In this document: positions 14,540 to 22,812 of the stretch, piece after piece
How the letters are laid out: each line of letters opens with the position of its first letter
Numbering within the stretch: the stretch's first letter is position 1
NCBI GenBank assembly: GCA_027623205.1
Contig: JAQBYC010000049.1
Span: 1-32,638 of the forward strand
Direction: 5' to 3'
DNA from: Pseudomonadota bacterium
GTDB taxonomy: Bacteria > Pseudomonadota > Alphaproteobacteria > GCA-2731375
Length of the DNA: 32,638 bases
The notes under the pieces: model-generated
What the model saw: only the letters and a program-made list of their open reading frames with translations
Told to the model about the DNA's origin: nothing
Databases searched by the model: none
Translations under genes and position numbers: made by a program

Positions 14540-15733
14540 CTAAATCACACCCGCCGTCTGGAATGCCTTGATTTCGTCCGGGCTGTAGCCAGCTTCGGTC
14601 AGGACCTCGATGGCATGTTCGCCGGGGGCTGCGGGCGGCCGGTTGATGGAGCCGCCACCGTGGGCGAGACGGAAGCCGGAGCCGATCAAATTCAAGGTGC
14701 CATAGGGACTTTCGACCGACTGCAACACGTCCCTGTGTTCCAGTTGCGGGTGCTTCACGGCCTCGGCGATAGTGCGAACCTGGCTGGCGGGCGCCCCGGC
14801 TTCGGCCAGACGGGCCTCCCAAGTGGCGATATCGGCCGTGGCGAAGGCGGTCTCGATAATTTCGCGCAAGGCCGGTTCATGTTCCGCCCGGCCGTGCCAG
14901 TCGGCGAAGCGTGGGTCATCCAGCAATTCCGGCTGGCCAATGGCGCGCATCAAGGCTTGGAATTGTCTTTCCGTGTTTACCGCGAGGAGCAAATTATCCT
15001 CGCCCACCTTGAACAGATTGGCGGTGGGCCGCCGGCTGATGGCCTGGTTGCCGTATTGGCCGTGCACGTGGCCGGTGGTGGTGTGTTCGCTAACCAGGGG
15101 CGAGAGGAAGGTCAGGGTAGCGTCCAGCATGGCAACATCGATACATTGTCCCTTGCCCGTATGACTGCGCTGAAACAGGGCCGAGGCGATGGCGAAGGCC
15201 GAGGTCATGCCGCCGATGGCATCGCAGACGGCAAATCCGGCCCGGGTCGGTCCCGTGCCTTCATGCCCGGTGATCGACATGATACCTGATACCGCCTGAA
15301 TGCGGCCATCGTAGGAGGGGGTATTGCGTTCCGGCCCGTTTTGCCCAAAGCCAGATACGGCGCAATAGATCAACTGGGGATTGATTGCCGAGAGCGCCTC
15401 ATATCCAATACCCAGGCGGTCCATGACGCCGGGACGGAAGTTTTCAGTCACCACATCCGCCGTTTTGACCAGACGTTTGACAATTTCGACGGCGGCCGGG
15501 TCCTTCATATCCAGGGCGATATTGCGCTTGTTGGCGTTGATCGCCAGCCAGCCGGGCGCCATGCCCCGATCGCTCCATTCCTTGGACAGTGGACCATTGC
15601 GCATTTCCTCACCGCCCGGCCGTTCCACCTTGATGACATCGGCGCCCAGCAGGGCCAGTTGGAAGCTGCCGAACGGACCGGCGAAGACTTGGGTGAAATC
15701 CAGGACGCGTATGCCGGCAAACGGTTTCGTCAT
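14540..15733 (-). CDS. CaiB/BaiF-type (class III) CoA transferase
   Basis: This encodes 397 residues. The family moves CoA between acyl-CoA and free acids through an aspartyl-CoA thioester. The N-terminal LDFTQVFAGPF and GADVIKVERPGGEE, then NKRNIALDMKDP and AVSGFGQNGP, are characteristic. The catalytic aspartate candidate is Asp142 in PSYDGRIQAVSG. Its substrate cannot be told from sequence. It begins 21 bases after the selenoprotein gene on the same strand, with GGGGGAG about 10 bases before the ATG, so the two are likely one operon. That link is the main clue to function. Confidence 0.92.
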   Translation of the reverse strand: MTKPFAGIRVLDFTQVFAGPFGSFQLALLGADVIKVERPGGEEMRNGPLSKEWSDRGMAPGWLAINANKRNIALDMKDPAAVEIVKRLVKTADVVTENFRPGVMDRLGIGYEALSAINPQLIYCAVSGFGQNGPERNTPSYDGRIQAVSGIMSITGHEGTGPTRAGFAVCDAIGGMTSAFAIASALFQRSHTGKGQCIDVAMLDATLTFLSPLVSEHTTTGHVHGQYGNQAISRRPTANLFKVGEDNLLLAVNTERQFQALMRAIGQPELLDDPRFADWHGRAEHEPALREIIETAFATADIATWEARLAEAGAPASQVRTIAEAVKHPQLEHRDVLQSVESPYGTLNLIGSGFRLAHGGGSINRPPAAPGEHAIEVLTEAGYSPDEIKAFQTAGVI

Positions 15734-15754: not shown

Positions 15755-16714
15755 TTATTCCGCCGCGTCGGATCGCGCCGCATCGTCCCGGCGCTGCTTG
15801 GCGATCCGTTTGGTCTCATCGAATTCAGCCCGGCGGCGGGCGATTTCCTCTGCCGGTATACGTTCGATATTCTGGAAATCCAGTTTCCATTCGCCATCTT
15901 CGTTCCAGCGTTGTGGCGACTGCCGCGTGGTGCGGGGGCCCGTGGCGCTTGCCAGCAGGTCCAGCGCCATGGCCAGGGTTTCTGCCTGGGAAACCGGGTC
16001 ATGAGGTTTGCCGGCTGCATTGCCCAGTGGAAAGTCACTGAACAGGAAGCGCGGCACGCCGCAGAATTCAACGATGTCCTTGGCGCAACCCATGATTACC
16101 GTGGGGATGCCGTTGGCTTCCAGATAACGTGCGGTCAGACTCACGGTCTGATGGCACACCGGTCAAGCCGCAACGATAATTGCCGCTTCGGCCCCGTCCT
16201 CGCGCAGACGGGCCAGGATCTCCGGACAATCCTGATCCAGGGTGGTCTGTTGGCTTCGATTGGTCGGGGTGCCGTGAAAACGTGGCGCCAGTGCACCGAT
16301 CCGGCCTTCCTGGGCAGCAATCTTTAACTGCGCCAGGGGGAAGTAACTGTTGCGATCGGCGGCGGTGGTATATTTCCGATCGTAGCCAAGATGAGAAATT
16401 CGTACATCGGGCTCGTCTTCCACCGGATCTGAATAGACTCGATAGAACTTGGCCGAGGCATTGTATGCCGCGCCGGGTCCCTGATCGCCCTTGTCTGGCT
16501 GATAGCGGGCTGAAGTGACGACCAGGCCGACCTTGGTCTTGTTTAGCGGCTTTGCCAGCGGCGTAAACGGCACCTCCGAATACTGCGCCCAGCGATAGGG
16601 GTTGCCGTAGCCAAGTGCGAGATAATAATCCCGCAGCCGCTGCATATAGGGGACCGGCACGTCATGTTCGGCGGCGAAGTCCAGTCCGCCATTCTCTGTT
16701 CCACGTCCATCCAT
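15755..16714 (-). CDS. GrdB-like selenoprotein with in-frame TGA (UxxC)
   Basis: Reading through TGA at 16165-16163 gives an intact 319-residue protein. Selenocysteine is residue 184 in AAUPVCHQTVSLT, so there is a U-x-x-C redox motif (Cys187). As recalled, GrdB, the Sec subunit of glycine/betaine/sarcosine reductase, has U-G-T-C at the matching place, followed by GIPVV and HPLGDP; here GIPTV and FPLGN follow. The N-terminal half has RDYYLALGYGNPYRWAQY. It is shorter than classical GrdB (about 430 residues). The start at 16714 has GAAAGGGCG upstream; an open frame to 16861 lacks similarity. No grdA, C, D or E is nearby. The function is unknown. A homologue with the same TGA lies at 21997-22812. 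Confidence 0.85.
16129..16165 (-). promoter_or_regulatory. Putative bacterial SECIS element 1
   Basis: On the transcript, UGA (16165-16163) and CCG are followed by GUGUG (16159-16155), pairing with CGCAC (16133-16129). After an internal loop (CCA / C), UCAGAC (16151-16146) pairs with GUCUGA (16140-16135) around apical loop CGUGA. The loop G falls 19 bases after UGA, within the known spacing for bacterial SECIS hairpins that recruit SelB. The structure is drawn by eye, with no folding energy computed. Confidence 0.7.
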
Positions 16715-16878
16715 CACAAACGCCCTTTCGTAAATTAGATGCTGCGACAACATAGCACATTTCGCCGGACAAACTGATAGGAGACTCGGGCTCCGACAGG
16801 CGTTAGATTGTCGGTGAACAAGGAAACAAACGGTCAAGGTCGGGTGCAAAGGTGCCCGCAAGGAAGGATAGGTAAGTG

Positions 16879-18087
16879 ATGATCCCAGAATATTCAGATC
16901 GCTCGAAGGATTTGCAGGAGCGGCTGCTGAAATTCATGGACGACGTGGTGTACCCGAACGAGGACCTTTACAAGGAACAACTCGACTCGGCCGCCGAACG
17001 GTGGAGCGTACCGCCGGTGCTGGAGGAAATGAAAGCCAAGGGACGTGAAGCCGGCTTATGGAACCTCTTTCTACCGGAGAGCGACCAGGTGGAACCCATG
17101 AGCAACCTTGATTACGCGCCGCTGTGCGAAATCATGGGACGTTCACCCATTGCCGCTGAAGCCACCAATTGCTCGGCGCCCGATACGGGCAACATGGAAG
17201 TGTTCACCCGGTATGGCACCGCCGAGCACAAGGAGCGCTGGTTGAAGCCTCTGCTGGACGGTAAGATCCGCTCCGCTTTTGCCATGACCGAGCCGGCCGT
17301 AGCTTCATCCGATGCCACCAATATTGAAACCGCGATCGTGCGCGAGGGTGATGAGTACGTCATCAATGGCCGCAAGTGGTGGACCTCCGGCATCGGTGAT
17401 CCCCGTTGCGAAGTTCTGATCCTGATGGGCAAAACCGACCCTGATAACCCCGACCGTTACCGTCAGCAATCCATGGTCGTGGTGCCGCGCGACAGCGCCG
17501 GCATCACGGTGGAAAAAATGCTGCACGTTTTCGGTTACGACGATGCTCCACACGGTCATGGCCAGGTGCTGTTCGAGGACGTGCGAGTGCCTGCGGATGC
17601 GATCCTGCTGGGCGAGGGCCGTGGCTTTGAGATTGCCCAGGGGCGGCTTGGCCCGGGCCGAATTCATCACTGCATGCGGCAGATCGGCGTTGCCGAACGG
17701 GCCCTCGAAAGCATGTGCAAGCGGGCCAAATCCCGTTTTGCCTTTGGCAAGCTGGTTTCGGAACAATCGGTCACGACCGAGCGGATCGCCGAAGCGCGCA
17801 TCGCCATCGATCAGTCCCGGTTGCTGGTACTCTTCGCGGCCCACAAGATGGACACGGTTGGCAACAAGGAAGCCCGCAAGGAGATCGCCATGATCAAGGT
17901 AGCGGTGCCGAACATGACCTGCCGTGTGGTTGATATGGCGATGCAGGTACATGGCGGCGGTGGTGTCAGCCAGGTCTTCAACCTGGCCCATGCCTATGCC
18001 CATTCCCGTACCCTGCGCTTCGCTGACGGTCCGGATGAGGTGCATCGTGCGCAAATCGGACGGCTGGAACTGCGTCGCTGGAACTAA
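16879..18087 (+). CDS. ACAD10/11-type acyl-CoA dehydrogenase 1
   Basis: This 402-residue flavoprotein dehydrogenase is of the ACAD10/11 type. FAD and substrate motifs include [17 protein letters not shown], the [11 protein letters not shown] segment and [18 protein letters not shown]. The C-terminus reads [10 protein letters not shown], where medium-chain enzymes have the YEGT catalytic glutamate, as in human ACAD11. Such enzymes can act on unusual or 4-hydroxyacyl-CoA substrates; no APH kinase domain is fused or adjacent. The ATG at 16879 directly follows a GTG at 16876, with AGGAAGGATAGG upstream. It is divergent from the first selenoprotein gene across 164 bases. A close paralogue is at 28643-29848. 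Confidence 0.92.
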
Positions 18088-18192: not shown

Positions 18193-19278
18193 ATGGCAAT
18201 TGATGACTGGTTCTCGGCCAGCTATGCCCAGGCACGAGAGAAATTTATCGCAGCTGCAACTGCGGCGGGCGCCATTGTGCGCAGTTATCCCCATCCCCTG
18301 AAAGGTCCCGATGGCGGTGATTTGGCAATGGATCTGGCCTATCTGGGGCCTCGGGATGCCGACCGTGTTCTGGTGACGTCGTCGGCGACCCATGGGATTG
18401 AAGGTTTTTGCGGCGCCGGCTGTCAGACCGGCTTTCTGGCAACCGGTCTGCACAGCGAATTGCCCGCGGGCATGGCGCTGCTGCATGTGCATGCCCATAA
18501 TCCCCATGGTTTCGCCCACGAGCGCCGGGTGACGGAAGACAACGTGGATTTGAACCGCAACTTCATCGATTTCAGCGCGCCCCTGCCGGACAATCCGGCC
18601 TATGAGGCGGTCCACCCCTGGTTGGTGCCCAGCGACTGGGACGGCCCGGCGCGGCAGGCGGCGGACGCGGCGATCCAAGGTTTCATCGCCGCCAACGGCA
18701 TGTTCGCCTTTCAGGCGGCGGTAACCTGCGGCCAGCATGGTCATCCCGACGGCCTGTTCTTCGGCGGCCGGGCGCCGACTTGGTCGCGGCGCACCATTGA
18801 AGCCCTGGCCAGGGAATATCTGGCCGGGCGTCGCCATGTGGCGTTGATCGATTTTCACACCGGTCTGGGCCCGAGGGGGCATGGCGAATTGATTTCGGTC
18901 GATGCCCCGGGTGGGGACGAATATCTGCGCACTGTCGCCTGGTACGGTGACGAGGTTCGCACGCCCAGTTCCGGCGACAGCGTCTCGGCCGACGTCAAAG
19001 GCACGATCGAGACCGGCTATCACGCCATATTGGCGAATACGCAGAGCACGACTATCGCCATTGAATTCGGCACCTTGCCGCCCGAACGGGTTCTGCAGGC
19101 CCTGCGCGCTGACAATTGGCTGTATCTGCATGGCGCGGTGGCCTCGGAAACGGGCCAGGCGATCAAGCGGGAGATCCGCGCCGCGTTCTATGGCGAGGAT
19201 TCTGAATGGAAGGCCATGGTCTGGGAGCGCGGCCTGGATATCACGCGCAAGACCATACGGGGCCTGGCGGACGGATGA
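18193..19278 (+). CDS. DUF2817 (M14-like) zinc hydrolase 1
   Basis: This 361-residue protein belongs to the DUF2817 family, related to M14 zinc carboxypeptidases and aspartoacylases. The first zinc motif HxxE is at 67-70 (ATHGIEGF), a second ligand His near 222 is in IDFHTGLGPRGHGE, and a catalytic glutamate candidate is in IAIEFGTLPPERVL. NVDLNRNFIDF is the typical DLNRNF signature of the fold. There is no signal peptide, so it is cytoplasmic, and it likely hydrolyses an amide bond in a small molecule or peptide. Its stop overlaps the start of a second DUF2817 gene in ATGA. Confidence 0.88.
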   Translation: MAIDDWFSASYAQAREKFIAAATAAGAIVRSYPHPLKGPDGGDLAMDLAYLGPRDADRVLVTSSATHGIEGFCGAGCQTGFLATGLHSELPAGMALLHVHAHNPHGFAHERRVTEDNVDLNRNFIDFSAPLPDNPAYEAVHPWLVPSDWDGPARQAADAAIQGFIAANGMFAFQAAVTCGQHGHPDGLFFGGRAPTWSRRTIEALAREYLAGRRHVALIDFHTGLGPRGHGELISVDAPGGDEYLRTVAWYGDEVRTPSSGDSVSADVKGTIETGYHAILANTQSTTIAIEFGTLPPERVLQALRADNWLYLHGAVASETGQAIKREIRAAFYGEDSEWKAMVWERGLDITRKTIRGLADG

Positions 19279-20351
19279 ACGCCGCCAACAACGGGTACGC
19301 CGCGCATTTTCGCCCGGATTATGCCGCCTGCCGGGACTATTTTCTCGACCTGGCGGCGTCCTCGGGCGGGGAGTTGGTGCGGGCGGCCAACCCGGTCCCA
19401 GGGCCGGACGGTATTGAATTAAGCACCGAGTTCCTGCACCTGGGCCCGCGGGATGCGGAACGCGCCCTGATTTTGGTATCCGGCACCCATGGGGCCGAGG
19501 GCTTCGCGGGCTCCGCCATTCAGTGCGCCTGGCTCGCAGCGGCGACGGCCGCCAGCTTGCCGGAAAATCTGGCGGTGTTGCTGGTGCATGGCATAAACCC
19601 CTTCGGCTTTGCGCATTTACGCCGGGTCAATGAAGACAATGTGGATTTGAACCGCAACTTCATCGATCACGAGACTGAGCATCCGCATAATGAAAATTAT
19701 GTGCGGATCGGCGAGGCAATGGCGGCAACGGCCCTGGACGGCCCTAAGCGGGCCAAAGCCGATAAAGATCTGGACCGCATCAGCGCGGACATGGGCCAAT
19801 TGAACGTCATGCGCGCCGTGGGCGGACAATACGACGCAGCCGAGGGGATGTTTTACGGCGGCCGGGTGCCCGTCTGGTCCAACCGGACCCTGCGGGAATA
19901 CTTAGCCAGCTTTCTGCCGGCTGTGAAACTGGCGGCCTACGTGGATATTCATACCGGTCTGGGGCCATCGGGCCATGGCAGCCTCCTGGGGTATCACTGG
20001 AAGGGCACCGAAGGCCATGATCTGGCGCGGTCCTGGTGGGGCAAGGATATAACCGCCGCCTCGGTCAAGATCAACCACGGCAAGACCGGCCACGGCGCCA
20101 TGGAGGCCTTGGCCCCGGCCCAGGTGGTCTGCCTGACCCTGGAATTCGGTACTTTGCCCTTTGCCGCGGTGCTGGCGGCCTTGCGCGATGAACATGCCCT
20201 GTGGTGGCATGGCGCGGGGCGCGAGAGCAGCGCCATCAAGGCGGCCTTCCGGGCCGCCTTTTGCCGCGACGATCCGGCTTGGCGGGAGGCGGTGGTGAAA
20301 CGTGGCCTGCAAATCGCCACAGATGCCATTACAGGTTTGACTGGCGTCTAG
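19275..20351 (+). CDS. DUF2817 (M14-like) zinc hydrolase 2
   Basis: This encodes 358 residues, a tandem paralogue of the preceding gene. The zinc motif HxxE is at 72-75 (SGTHGAEGF), the later His in VDIHTGLGPSGHG, the glutamate in LTLEFGTLPF, and DLNRNF is present. Differences from the first copy include the middle segment and a more open N-terminus. The start at 19275 overlaps the previous stop; an in-frame ATG at 19206 lies inside the first gene and is unlikely. The 3' end overlaps the convergent GMC gene by 23 bases. It may form a complex with the first copy or act on a related substrate. Confidence 0.88.
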   Translation: MNAANNGYAAHFRPDYAACRDYFLDLAASSGGELVRAANPVPGPDGIELSTEFLHLGPRDAERALILVSGTHGAEGFAGSAIQCAWLAAATAASLPENLAVLLVHGINPFGFAHLRRVNEDNVDLNRNFIDHETEHPHNENYVRIGEAMAATALDGPKRAKADKDLDRISADMGQLNVMRAVGGQYDAAEGMFYGGRVPVWSNRTLREYLASFLPAVKLAAYVDIHTGLGPSGHGSLLGYHWKGTEGHDLARSWWGKDITAASVKINHGKTGHGAMEALAPAQVVCLTLEFGTLPFAAVLAALRDEHALWWHGAGRESSAIKAAFRAAFCRDDPAWREAVVKRGLQIATDAITGLTGV

Positions 20352-21996: not shown

Positions 21997-22812
21997 TTAC
22001 TTTTTCAATTGCCGGGCCAGCGCTTCGGGTGTTGTTTCAACAGCGAAATAAACGAAAGTGTCCTCCCATTGCAGCGGTAGATCGACCAAGATGCCGGGCT
22101 GTTCCGCCGTGACGGCCAGGTCCAGCGCCGCACGCAGGATCTCTCTCTGCATCGCGCTATCGCCCGCCCGCCCGAAGGTATTGCCCATGGGAAAGTTGAC
22201 GAACAGGCTGCGCGGCGGCCGCACCAGGGCGGTGATGTCCCGCCCTGTCGAAACGGTGACGGTCGGGATGCCGCTCTCTTCCACTACCCTCGCGACCAGA
22301 CCCACGGTCTGGTGGTCGAGCGGTCAGGCCGGTATGGCGATGAGCAGATCTACCCCGTCCGCCTTGAGCTCGTCCACCAGTGCGGGGGCGGATTCCTCGA
22401 TCACCTTGCTGCGGTTATAGGTCCGGCCCATGAAGCCGCTCCACAGCCTGCTTGCGACGGCGCCGATTTCGCCGGCCGCGGCCAGTTCGGCCAGGCGGTC
22501 CACGGGGAAGATGCAGTTGAGGTCCCGGTCCGCATCGCTGTGATCATAATAGCTGTCGTGGATCTGATACTGGTCCAATGGCGTTGCCGGATCAATGGCG
22601 TCCACCCGGTGGTCATTGCGCGCGTCCGGGTCGAACGGTGCGGCCGTACAATGGGAAATGCCGCCGCTGACCAGCATGCCAACGGTGCACGCCGTCAAAG
22701 GCCTGGCAAGCGGCGTCCATGGCGCGCTATGGTTTTCGCTCCATTGATAGGGCGGAAATCCCATGGCGCCGTACTTGTTGTTCAGGGCGTCGACATAGCG
22801 GATCGGTTCCAT
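21997..22812 (-). CDS. GrdB-like selenoprotein with in-frame TGA (UxxD)
   Basis: Readthrough of TGA at 22326-22324 gives 271 residues. Selenocysteine is residue 163 in IPAUPLDHQTVGL, aligned exactly with Sec184 of the paralogue at 15755-16714, but the partner cysteine is replaced by Asp166. N-terminal MGFPPYQWSENHSAPWTPLARPL mirrors the paralogue's PYRWAQYSEVPFTPLAKPL; downstream GIPTV and FVNFPMGNTFGR match as well. The start at 22812 has GGAGA about 10 bases upstream. Without readthrough the product would lose 40% of its length although coding similarity continues in frame. Loss of the resolving cysteine suggests a single-selenol mechanism or another partner. The function is unknown. Confidence 0.83.
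22289..22326 (-). promoter_or_regulatory. Putative bacterial SECIS element 2
   Basis: After UGA (22326-22324) and CCG, CUCG (22320-22317) pairs with CGAG (22292-22289). After an internal loop (ACC / CG), ACCAGAC (22313-22307) pairs with GUCUGGU (22301-22295) around apical loop CGUGG. The loop G is 19 bases after UGA, the same as in element 1. The stem bases differ from element 1 but pairing is kept. Confidence 0.7.

Follow-up and report, generated by a model that had tools for sequence, protein, structure and literature searches.

The closest described systems

D-Proline reductase is a trait of anaerobic amino acid fermenters. Both in this enzyme and in glycine reductase, selenocysteine (Sec) displaces a substituent of the substrate, and in the respective PrdAB and GrdBE pairs, a pyruvoyl partner makes the C-N bond labile. 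The characteristic motif of GrdB is UxxCxxC (PMC13188914). FarB, a GrdB-like selenoprotein, is encoded in the fluoroacetate reductase operon of Cloacibacillus, and cleavage of the C-F bond has been proposed for it (PMC10838667). In addition, two metagenome surveys report marine selenoproteins under the name "Proline reductase PrdB", 42 genes (PMC1088965) and 235 genes (PMC2398784), and place them among the more abundant selenoprotein families of the surface ocean.

A predicted selenoprotein gene with a single in-frame TGA

The window, that is, the whole 32,638-nt stretch of alphaproteobacterial DNA analysed here, contains a frame, 16714-15755(-), that runs from ATG to TAA with one in-frame TGA (16165-16163), placing U184 in VAAUPVCHQTV (Table 1). 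The frame, the coordinates, the lone TGA and the 319-residue product given in the original prediction are all exact on re-reading. We estimate at about 0.92 the probability that this gene encodes a genuine selenoprotein of a stand-alone PrdB/GrdB branch, in a CoA-transferase operon; the figure covers selenoprotein nature, family and operon jointly, and excludes the chemistry.

Table 1. Predicted features of the locus (positions in the window)
Feature	Position	Strand	Remarks
Type III (CaiB/BaiF) CoA-transferase	14540..15733	-	21 nt downstream of the selenoprotein gene, same strand
PrdB/GrdB-like selenoprotein gene	15755..16714	-	319 aa, Sec at residue 184 (UPVCHQ)
SECIS-like hairpin of the selenoprotein gene	16129..16157	-	z -2.27
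In-frame TGA, predicted Sec codon	16163..16165	-	within gene 15755..16714
Acyl-CoA dehydrogenase	16876..18087	+	divergent; neighbour conserved within the genus
Second paralogous selenoprotein gene	22000..22812	-	Sec in UPLDHQ, no Cys at +3
SECIS-like hairpin of the second paralogue	22295..22313	-	z -2.05
In-frame TGA of the second paralogue	22324..22326	-	within gene 22000..22812

The SelA, SelB, SelD and tRNA-Sec encoded in this genome would insert Sec at UGA codon 184, under the direction of a hairpin that lies 15 nt further downstream. Because five independent lines of evidence agree (machinery, conservation, Sec/Cys exchange, co-occurrence and RNA structure), the selenocysteine reading of the original prediction is strongly supported. 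That prediction had proposed a search of the genome for sel genes and an alignment with homologues that carry Cys at the TGA column. The genome (5.0 Mb, 97% complete) encodes tRNA-Sec with the anticodon UCA, selB with selA adjoining it on contig C213, and selD. There are two selD genes (L018 and L019, on contigs C63 and C163), one of which itself contains a TGA, in the motif GGGUGSK; the other forms part of an open frame of 794 residues and may be a fusion.

The same TGA is present in orthologues, 80-89% identical, from 10 other genomes of the genus. At the level of the taxonomic family, 14 of the 15 genomes have 2 to 11 matches, about 90 in total, nearly all with exactly one TGA, and U occupies the Sec column in all 70 aligned copies that were fetched. 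On either side of the TGA, the dN/dS ratio is low, about 0.05-0.2, which indicates purifying selection on both parts; the downstream part, which contains the hairpin, has the lower dS. Two in-frame TGA codons are seen in the matches to family members L189 and G003:C51:156149-156979 (L056, L172).

For the frequency of Sec and Cys, an unselected class-wide sample of 385 genomes was used; that the class is Alphaproteobacteria is concluded from the relatives that carry names. A relative of the selenoprotein gene is found in 31 of these, and in the 25 aligned copies the Sec column holds U (14) or C (11) and nothing else; a quick tree requires at least five Sec/Cys changes. Outside the taxonomic family of the window, selA is present in 15 of 17 sampled genomes with an in-frame TGA copy and in none of the nine with Cys copies only (Fisher p 1.8e-5), the background in the whole sample being 56/385; Cys homologues accordingly occur in genomes that lack the Sec machinery. 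No selA was detected in two TGA-carrying genomes, G025 (77% complete) and G325 (95% complete), which may reflect gaps in the assemblies or a Sec pathway that was lost recently. A separate scan of genome contigs used a Cys pattern, so that its 80 Cys homologues are uninformative on Sec/Cys frequency. TAG-coded Sec was considered for genomes G084 and G104 and rejected, their in-frame TAG codons falling off the Sec column.

The predicted SECIS-like hairpin begins about 15 nt after the TGA and consists of a core stem at 16135-16151 (TCAGAC-CGTGA-GTCTGA) and an outer GUGC/GCAC stem. Across its six pairs, 95.5% of the cells are paired, with compensatory changes, and the covariation score is 0.593 against 0.210 for shuffled alignments, none of the 500 shuffles scoring as high. 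The hairpin is kept in Sec copies and eroded in Cys copies. In the former, stem and loop fix the codons GTG-AGT-CTG (GTG in 13/13 copies of the class sample and 50/51 of the taxonomic family), and the Cys homologues mostly encode the same residues by GTC-AGC (58/80 and 67/80). According to PMC1088965, a bacterial SECIS element is a hairpin that follows the UGA directly on its 3' side and carries a G in a small apical loop, and this is the arrangement found after TGA 16165-16163. A match to the Rfam family sR2 is sub-threshold and was dismissed as chance.

Six paralogues in one genome

The genome contains five further TGA-containing paralogues (24-56% identity over the alignment), with one TGA each. 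One of them, 22812-22000(-), lies within the window and was overlooked in the original prediction, as were the four elsewhere in the genome (L023, L024, L025 and L027, on contigs C154, C202, C37 and C129); L027 (428 aa) is extended at its C-terminus by a region that matches no Pfam family. In a congener, up to eleven matches occur in one genome. Annotation blind to selenoproteins would split or truncate all six genes.

The active-site motif differs among clades of the family: UPVCHQ in clades A-D, UPLDHQ in clade E, and UPLC/UPNC-TRAV in clades F and G, which also carry a C-terminal extension. Clade E, to which the second gene of the window belongs, keeps Sec and has Asp in place of the resolving Cys, and a Cys homologue of this clade from another taxonomic family has CPLD, so that the UxxC pair is not universal.

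Genomic context

The selenoprotein gene and the downstream CoA-transferase gene are, we infer, co-transcribed. In the genus, the CoA-transferase directly follows at 10 of 11 loci and is 87-94% identical where measured. In the class sample, the partner is found at 8 of 13 Sec loci and 1 of 7 Cys loci, in five further taxonomic families, and these CoA-transferases are mostly 55-65% identical to that of the window. Twelve of the scanned Cys loci, mostly from Acetobacteraceae and other Rhodospirillales, also have it (57-63% identity where measured). The pair is thus found in six families of the class, with Sec in some members and Cys in others, and its persistence where Sec and Cys have been exchanged speaks for a functional link between the two genes. 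Many Cys homologues, including all those of Bradyrhizobium, have no such CoA-transferase beside them, and the same is true of paralogue clades B, D, E and G; clades C (in the same genome) and F have a different CoA-transferase just upstream, 28-32% identical.

Other recurrent neighbours are acyl-CoA dehydrogenases (clades A and D), a D-2-hydroxyacid dehydrogenase (F) and TauD (G), and clade C is accompanied by a D-threonine-aldolase-like PLP enzyme and a D-aminoacylase-like amidohydrolase. The nitrilase and aldoxime dehydratase genes beside some Bradyrhizobium Cys homologues were set aside, given that they are missing at other Bradyrhizobium loci. Two tandem DUF2817 genes of one cluster occupy 18193-20351 (+) and adjoin the acyl-CoA dehydrogenase gene in congeners too.

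A search of the open-access literature found no paper joining this selenoprotein family with a CoA-transferase; the conserved operon is new in this sense. Nor did that literature mention so large a set of paralogues or a UPLD variant, and the passages on "PrdB" in the two marine surveys showed no analysis of operons or paralogues.

Family placement

A profile search detects similarity to Pfam GRDB (PF07355) with 34 bits, above the gathering threshold of 22, in a match that covers the C-terminal half only (positions 207-346 of the 347 in the model). The original prediction called the protein GrdB-like, and this stands at the superfamily level; PrdB, however, is closer, the best NCBIfam model being TIGR04483 with 86.7 bits against a curated equivalog cut-off of 300. 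The cut-offs of the GrdB models TIGR01918 and TIGR01917 are missed as well (39.2 against 65.45 bits and 36.9 against 602 bits), so that no PrdB or GrdB model is matched at its curated cut-off. On these profile scores, the protein resembles PrdB, with a single domain and no fused partner, but fits the curated definition of neither PrdB nor GrdB. The description "stand-alone, in a proteobacterium" thus holds, and the further claim that the other reductase subunits are lacking fits the finding of no PF09338 (PrdA/GrdE) or PF04723 (GRDA) match in the genome in searches run without a positive control. The protein is not a lone oddity, given the six paralogues, the widespread family and the conserved CoA-transferase partner.

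Two relatives deserve mention. L248, a Cys homologue on a plasmid of Roseomonas haemaphysalidis, is convergent to a gene for the protein adenylyltransferase SelO. L198:7186-7890 (+) in genome G012 is very divergent (UPDCCRNVPV, branch length 2.36) and may represent another family.

AlphaFold models the joined protein with confidence along its whole length (mean pLDDT 94). Foldseek and fold searches with this model return generic Rossmann/periplasmic-binding-like matches only (E >= 0.01; best Z 8.8, LacI), so no functional inference is drawn from structure, and sequence searches of the PDB give no match.

Predicted function and alternative readings

Given that Sec displaces substituents in this superfamily and that the partner makes CoA esters, a tentative proposal is that the protein is a selenolate reductase whose substrates are alpha-substituted acids linked to CoA. 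The CoA-transferase would turn a 2-substituted carboxylic acid into its CoA ester, with thioester activation standing in for pyruvoyl activation; the Sec selenolate would attack the substituted carbon, displacing an amine, halide or sulfur group; Cys187 would resolve the selenyl bond, and cellular thiols would re-reduce the enzyme. The acyl-CoA product would enter beta-oxidation, an acyl-CoA dehydrogenase being encoded next door, and the six paralogues would serve different substrates. Against this chemistry, the pyruvoyl partner of PrdAB and GrdBE was not found in the genome (in searches that had no positive control), clade E lacks the resolving Cys, the CoA-transferase is missing at many loci, and none of the solved structures is close. 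It is a longer shot that selenolate enzymes without a pyruvoyl group have radiated in the class and that each of them takes another alpha-substituent off CoA-activated acids; if true, this would be Sec-dependent reductive catabolism of an undescribed type.

Roughly level with alpha-substituent reduction is a possible general role in thiol or peroxide redox chemistry, in which UxxC would act as a thioredoxin-like selenenylsulfide/selenolate couple that serves detoxification or repair and has no carbon substrate of its own. Such a role is compatible with the retention of UxxC/CxxC in clades A-D, with the interchange of Sec and Cys that is seen in many redox selenoproteins and with the wide distribution of the family in probably aerobic bacteria. 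However, UPLD in clade E indicates that the Cys at +3 can be dispensed with, the neighbouring genes point to catabolism (CoA-transferase, acyl-CoA dehydrogenase, D-2-hydroxyacid dehydrogenase, TauD) and not to stress responses, and the known superfamily members cleave C-N bonds.

It is far less probable that the protein is a true subunit of D-proline reductase (or of a glycine-type reductase) whose PrdA/GrdE pyruvoyl partner is encoded elsewhere in the genome. Although PrdB is the best curated model, and the Sec column and the flanking UxxCH match bona fide PrdB, real PrdBs encoded on clostridial plasmids score 310-425 bits on TIGR04483. The PF09338 model recognises a real PrdA and has no match in this genome, with the control genomes giving none either; nor was a PrdA recognised near any paralogue examined.

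A real stop at the TGA, with the halves forming two separate proteins, is very improbable: a GTG start at 16159 does directly follow the TGA, but in the Cys homologues a single uninterrupted chain has the length of the joined product, the Sec forms track selA, and the structural model is confident throughout. Last, a sequencing error or pseudogene stop, conceivable in a 228-contig draft, is already refuted by the comparative data, namely the same TGA in orthologues of other assemblies, the five paralogues with TGA, selection on both sides and a covarying hairpin.

Comparison with known systems

The predicted selenoprotein is aligned with bona fide PrdBs of Terrisporobacter and Peptoclostridium such that Sec184 falls on the PrdB Sec column (UPVCH versus UGTCH). 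It is of the same single-domain length class, apart from an N-terminal extension of about 40 residues, and shares the invariant residues H108, D112, D120, E199, R222, G231 and Q243. It differs from PrdB in its low identity (28-33%), far under the curated cut-off, and in having a CoA-transferase as the partner instead of an adjoining PrdA.

With GrdB, GrdF and GrdH (glycine, sarcosine and betaine reductase), the C-terminal half is homologous and the Sec motif is in the same place, whereas the N-terminal half of the model is missing, and searches of the genome without a positive control found no GrdA or GrdE. The UxxCxxC motif of GrdB is not matched, UPVCHQT lacking its second Cys. The resemblance to FarB lies in the GrdB-like selenoprotein, proposed there to displace a substituent of a carboxylic acid, and in the multiple GrdB paralogues within one genome, eight in Cloacibacillus; FarB, however, is paired with the GrdE-like FarE and occurs in an anaerobe, whereas here the partner is a CoA-transferase, with no GrdE (PMC10838667).

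Annotated relatives in Roseomonas and Haematobacter are named "glycine/sarcosine/betaine reductase selenoprotein B family protein" at NCBI. These are 54-60% identical homologues, with clear similarity along the full length (60.6% identity with 90% of the query covered, and 57.4% with 82%), that differ in having Cys where Sec stands here and in their neighbours.

The marine "PrdB" likewise has Sec in UxxC and is abundant in surface ocean bacteria, according to the surveys (PMC1088965, PMC2398784). It very probably belongs to the same family as the present protein; the family is already known, also under its NCBI name, and its Sec form would have been counted as "PrdB" in the marine surveys since 2005. 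The selenoprotein/CoA-transferase operon, kept through Sec-to-Cys exchanges, offers a testable lead to the role of this abundant family. Given that the family abounds in the surface ocean and the true enzyme is anaerobic, the name "PrdB" for it is very probably misleading.
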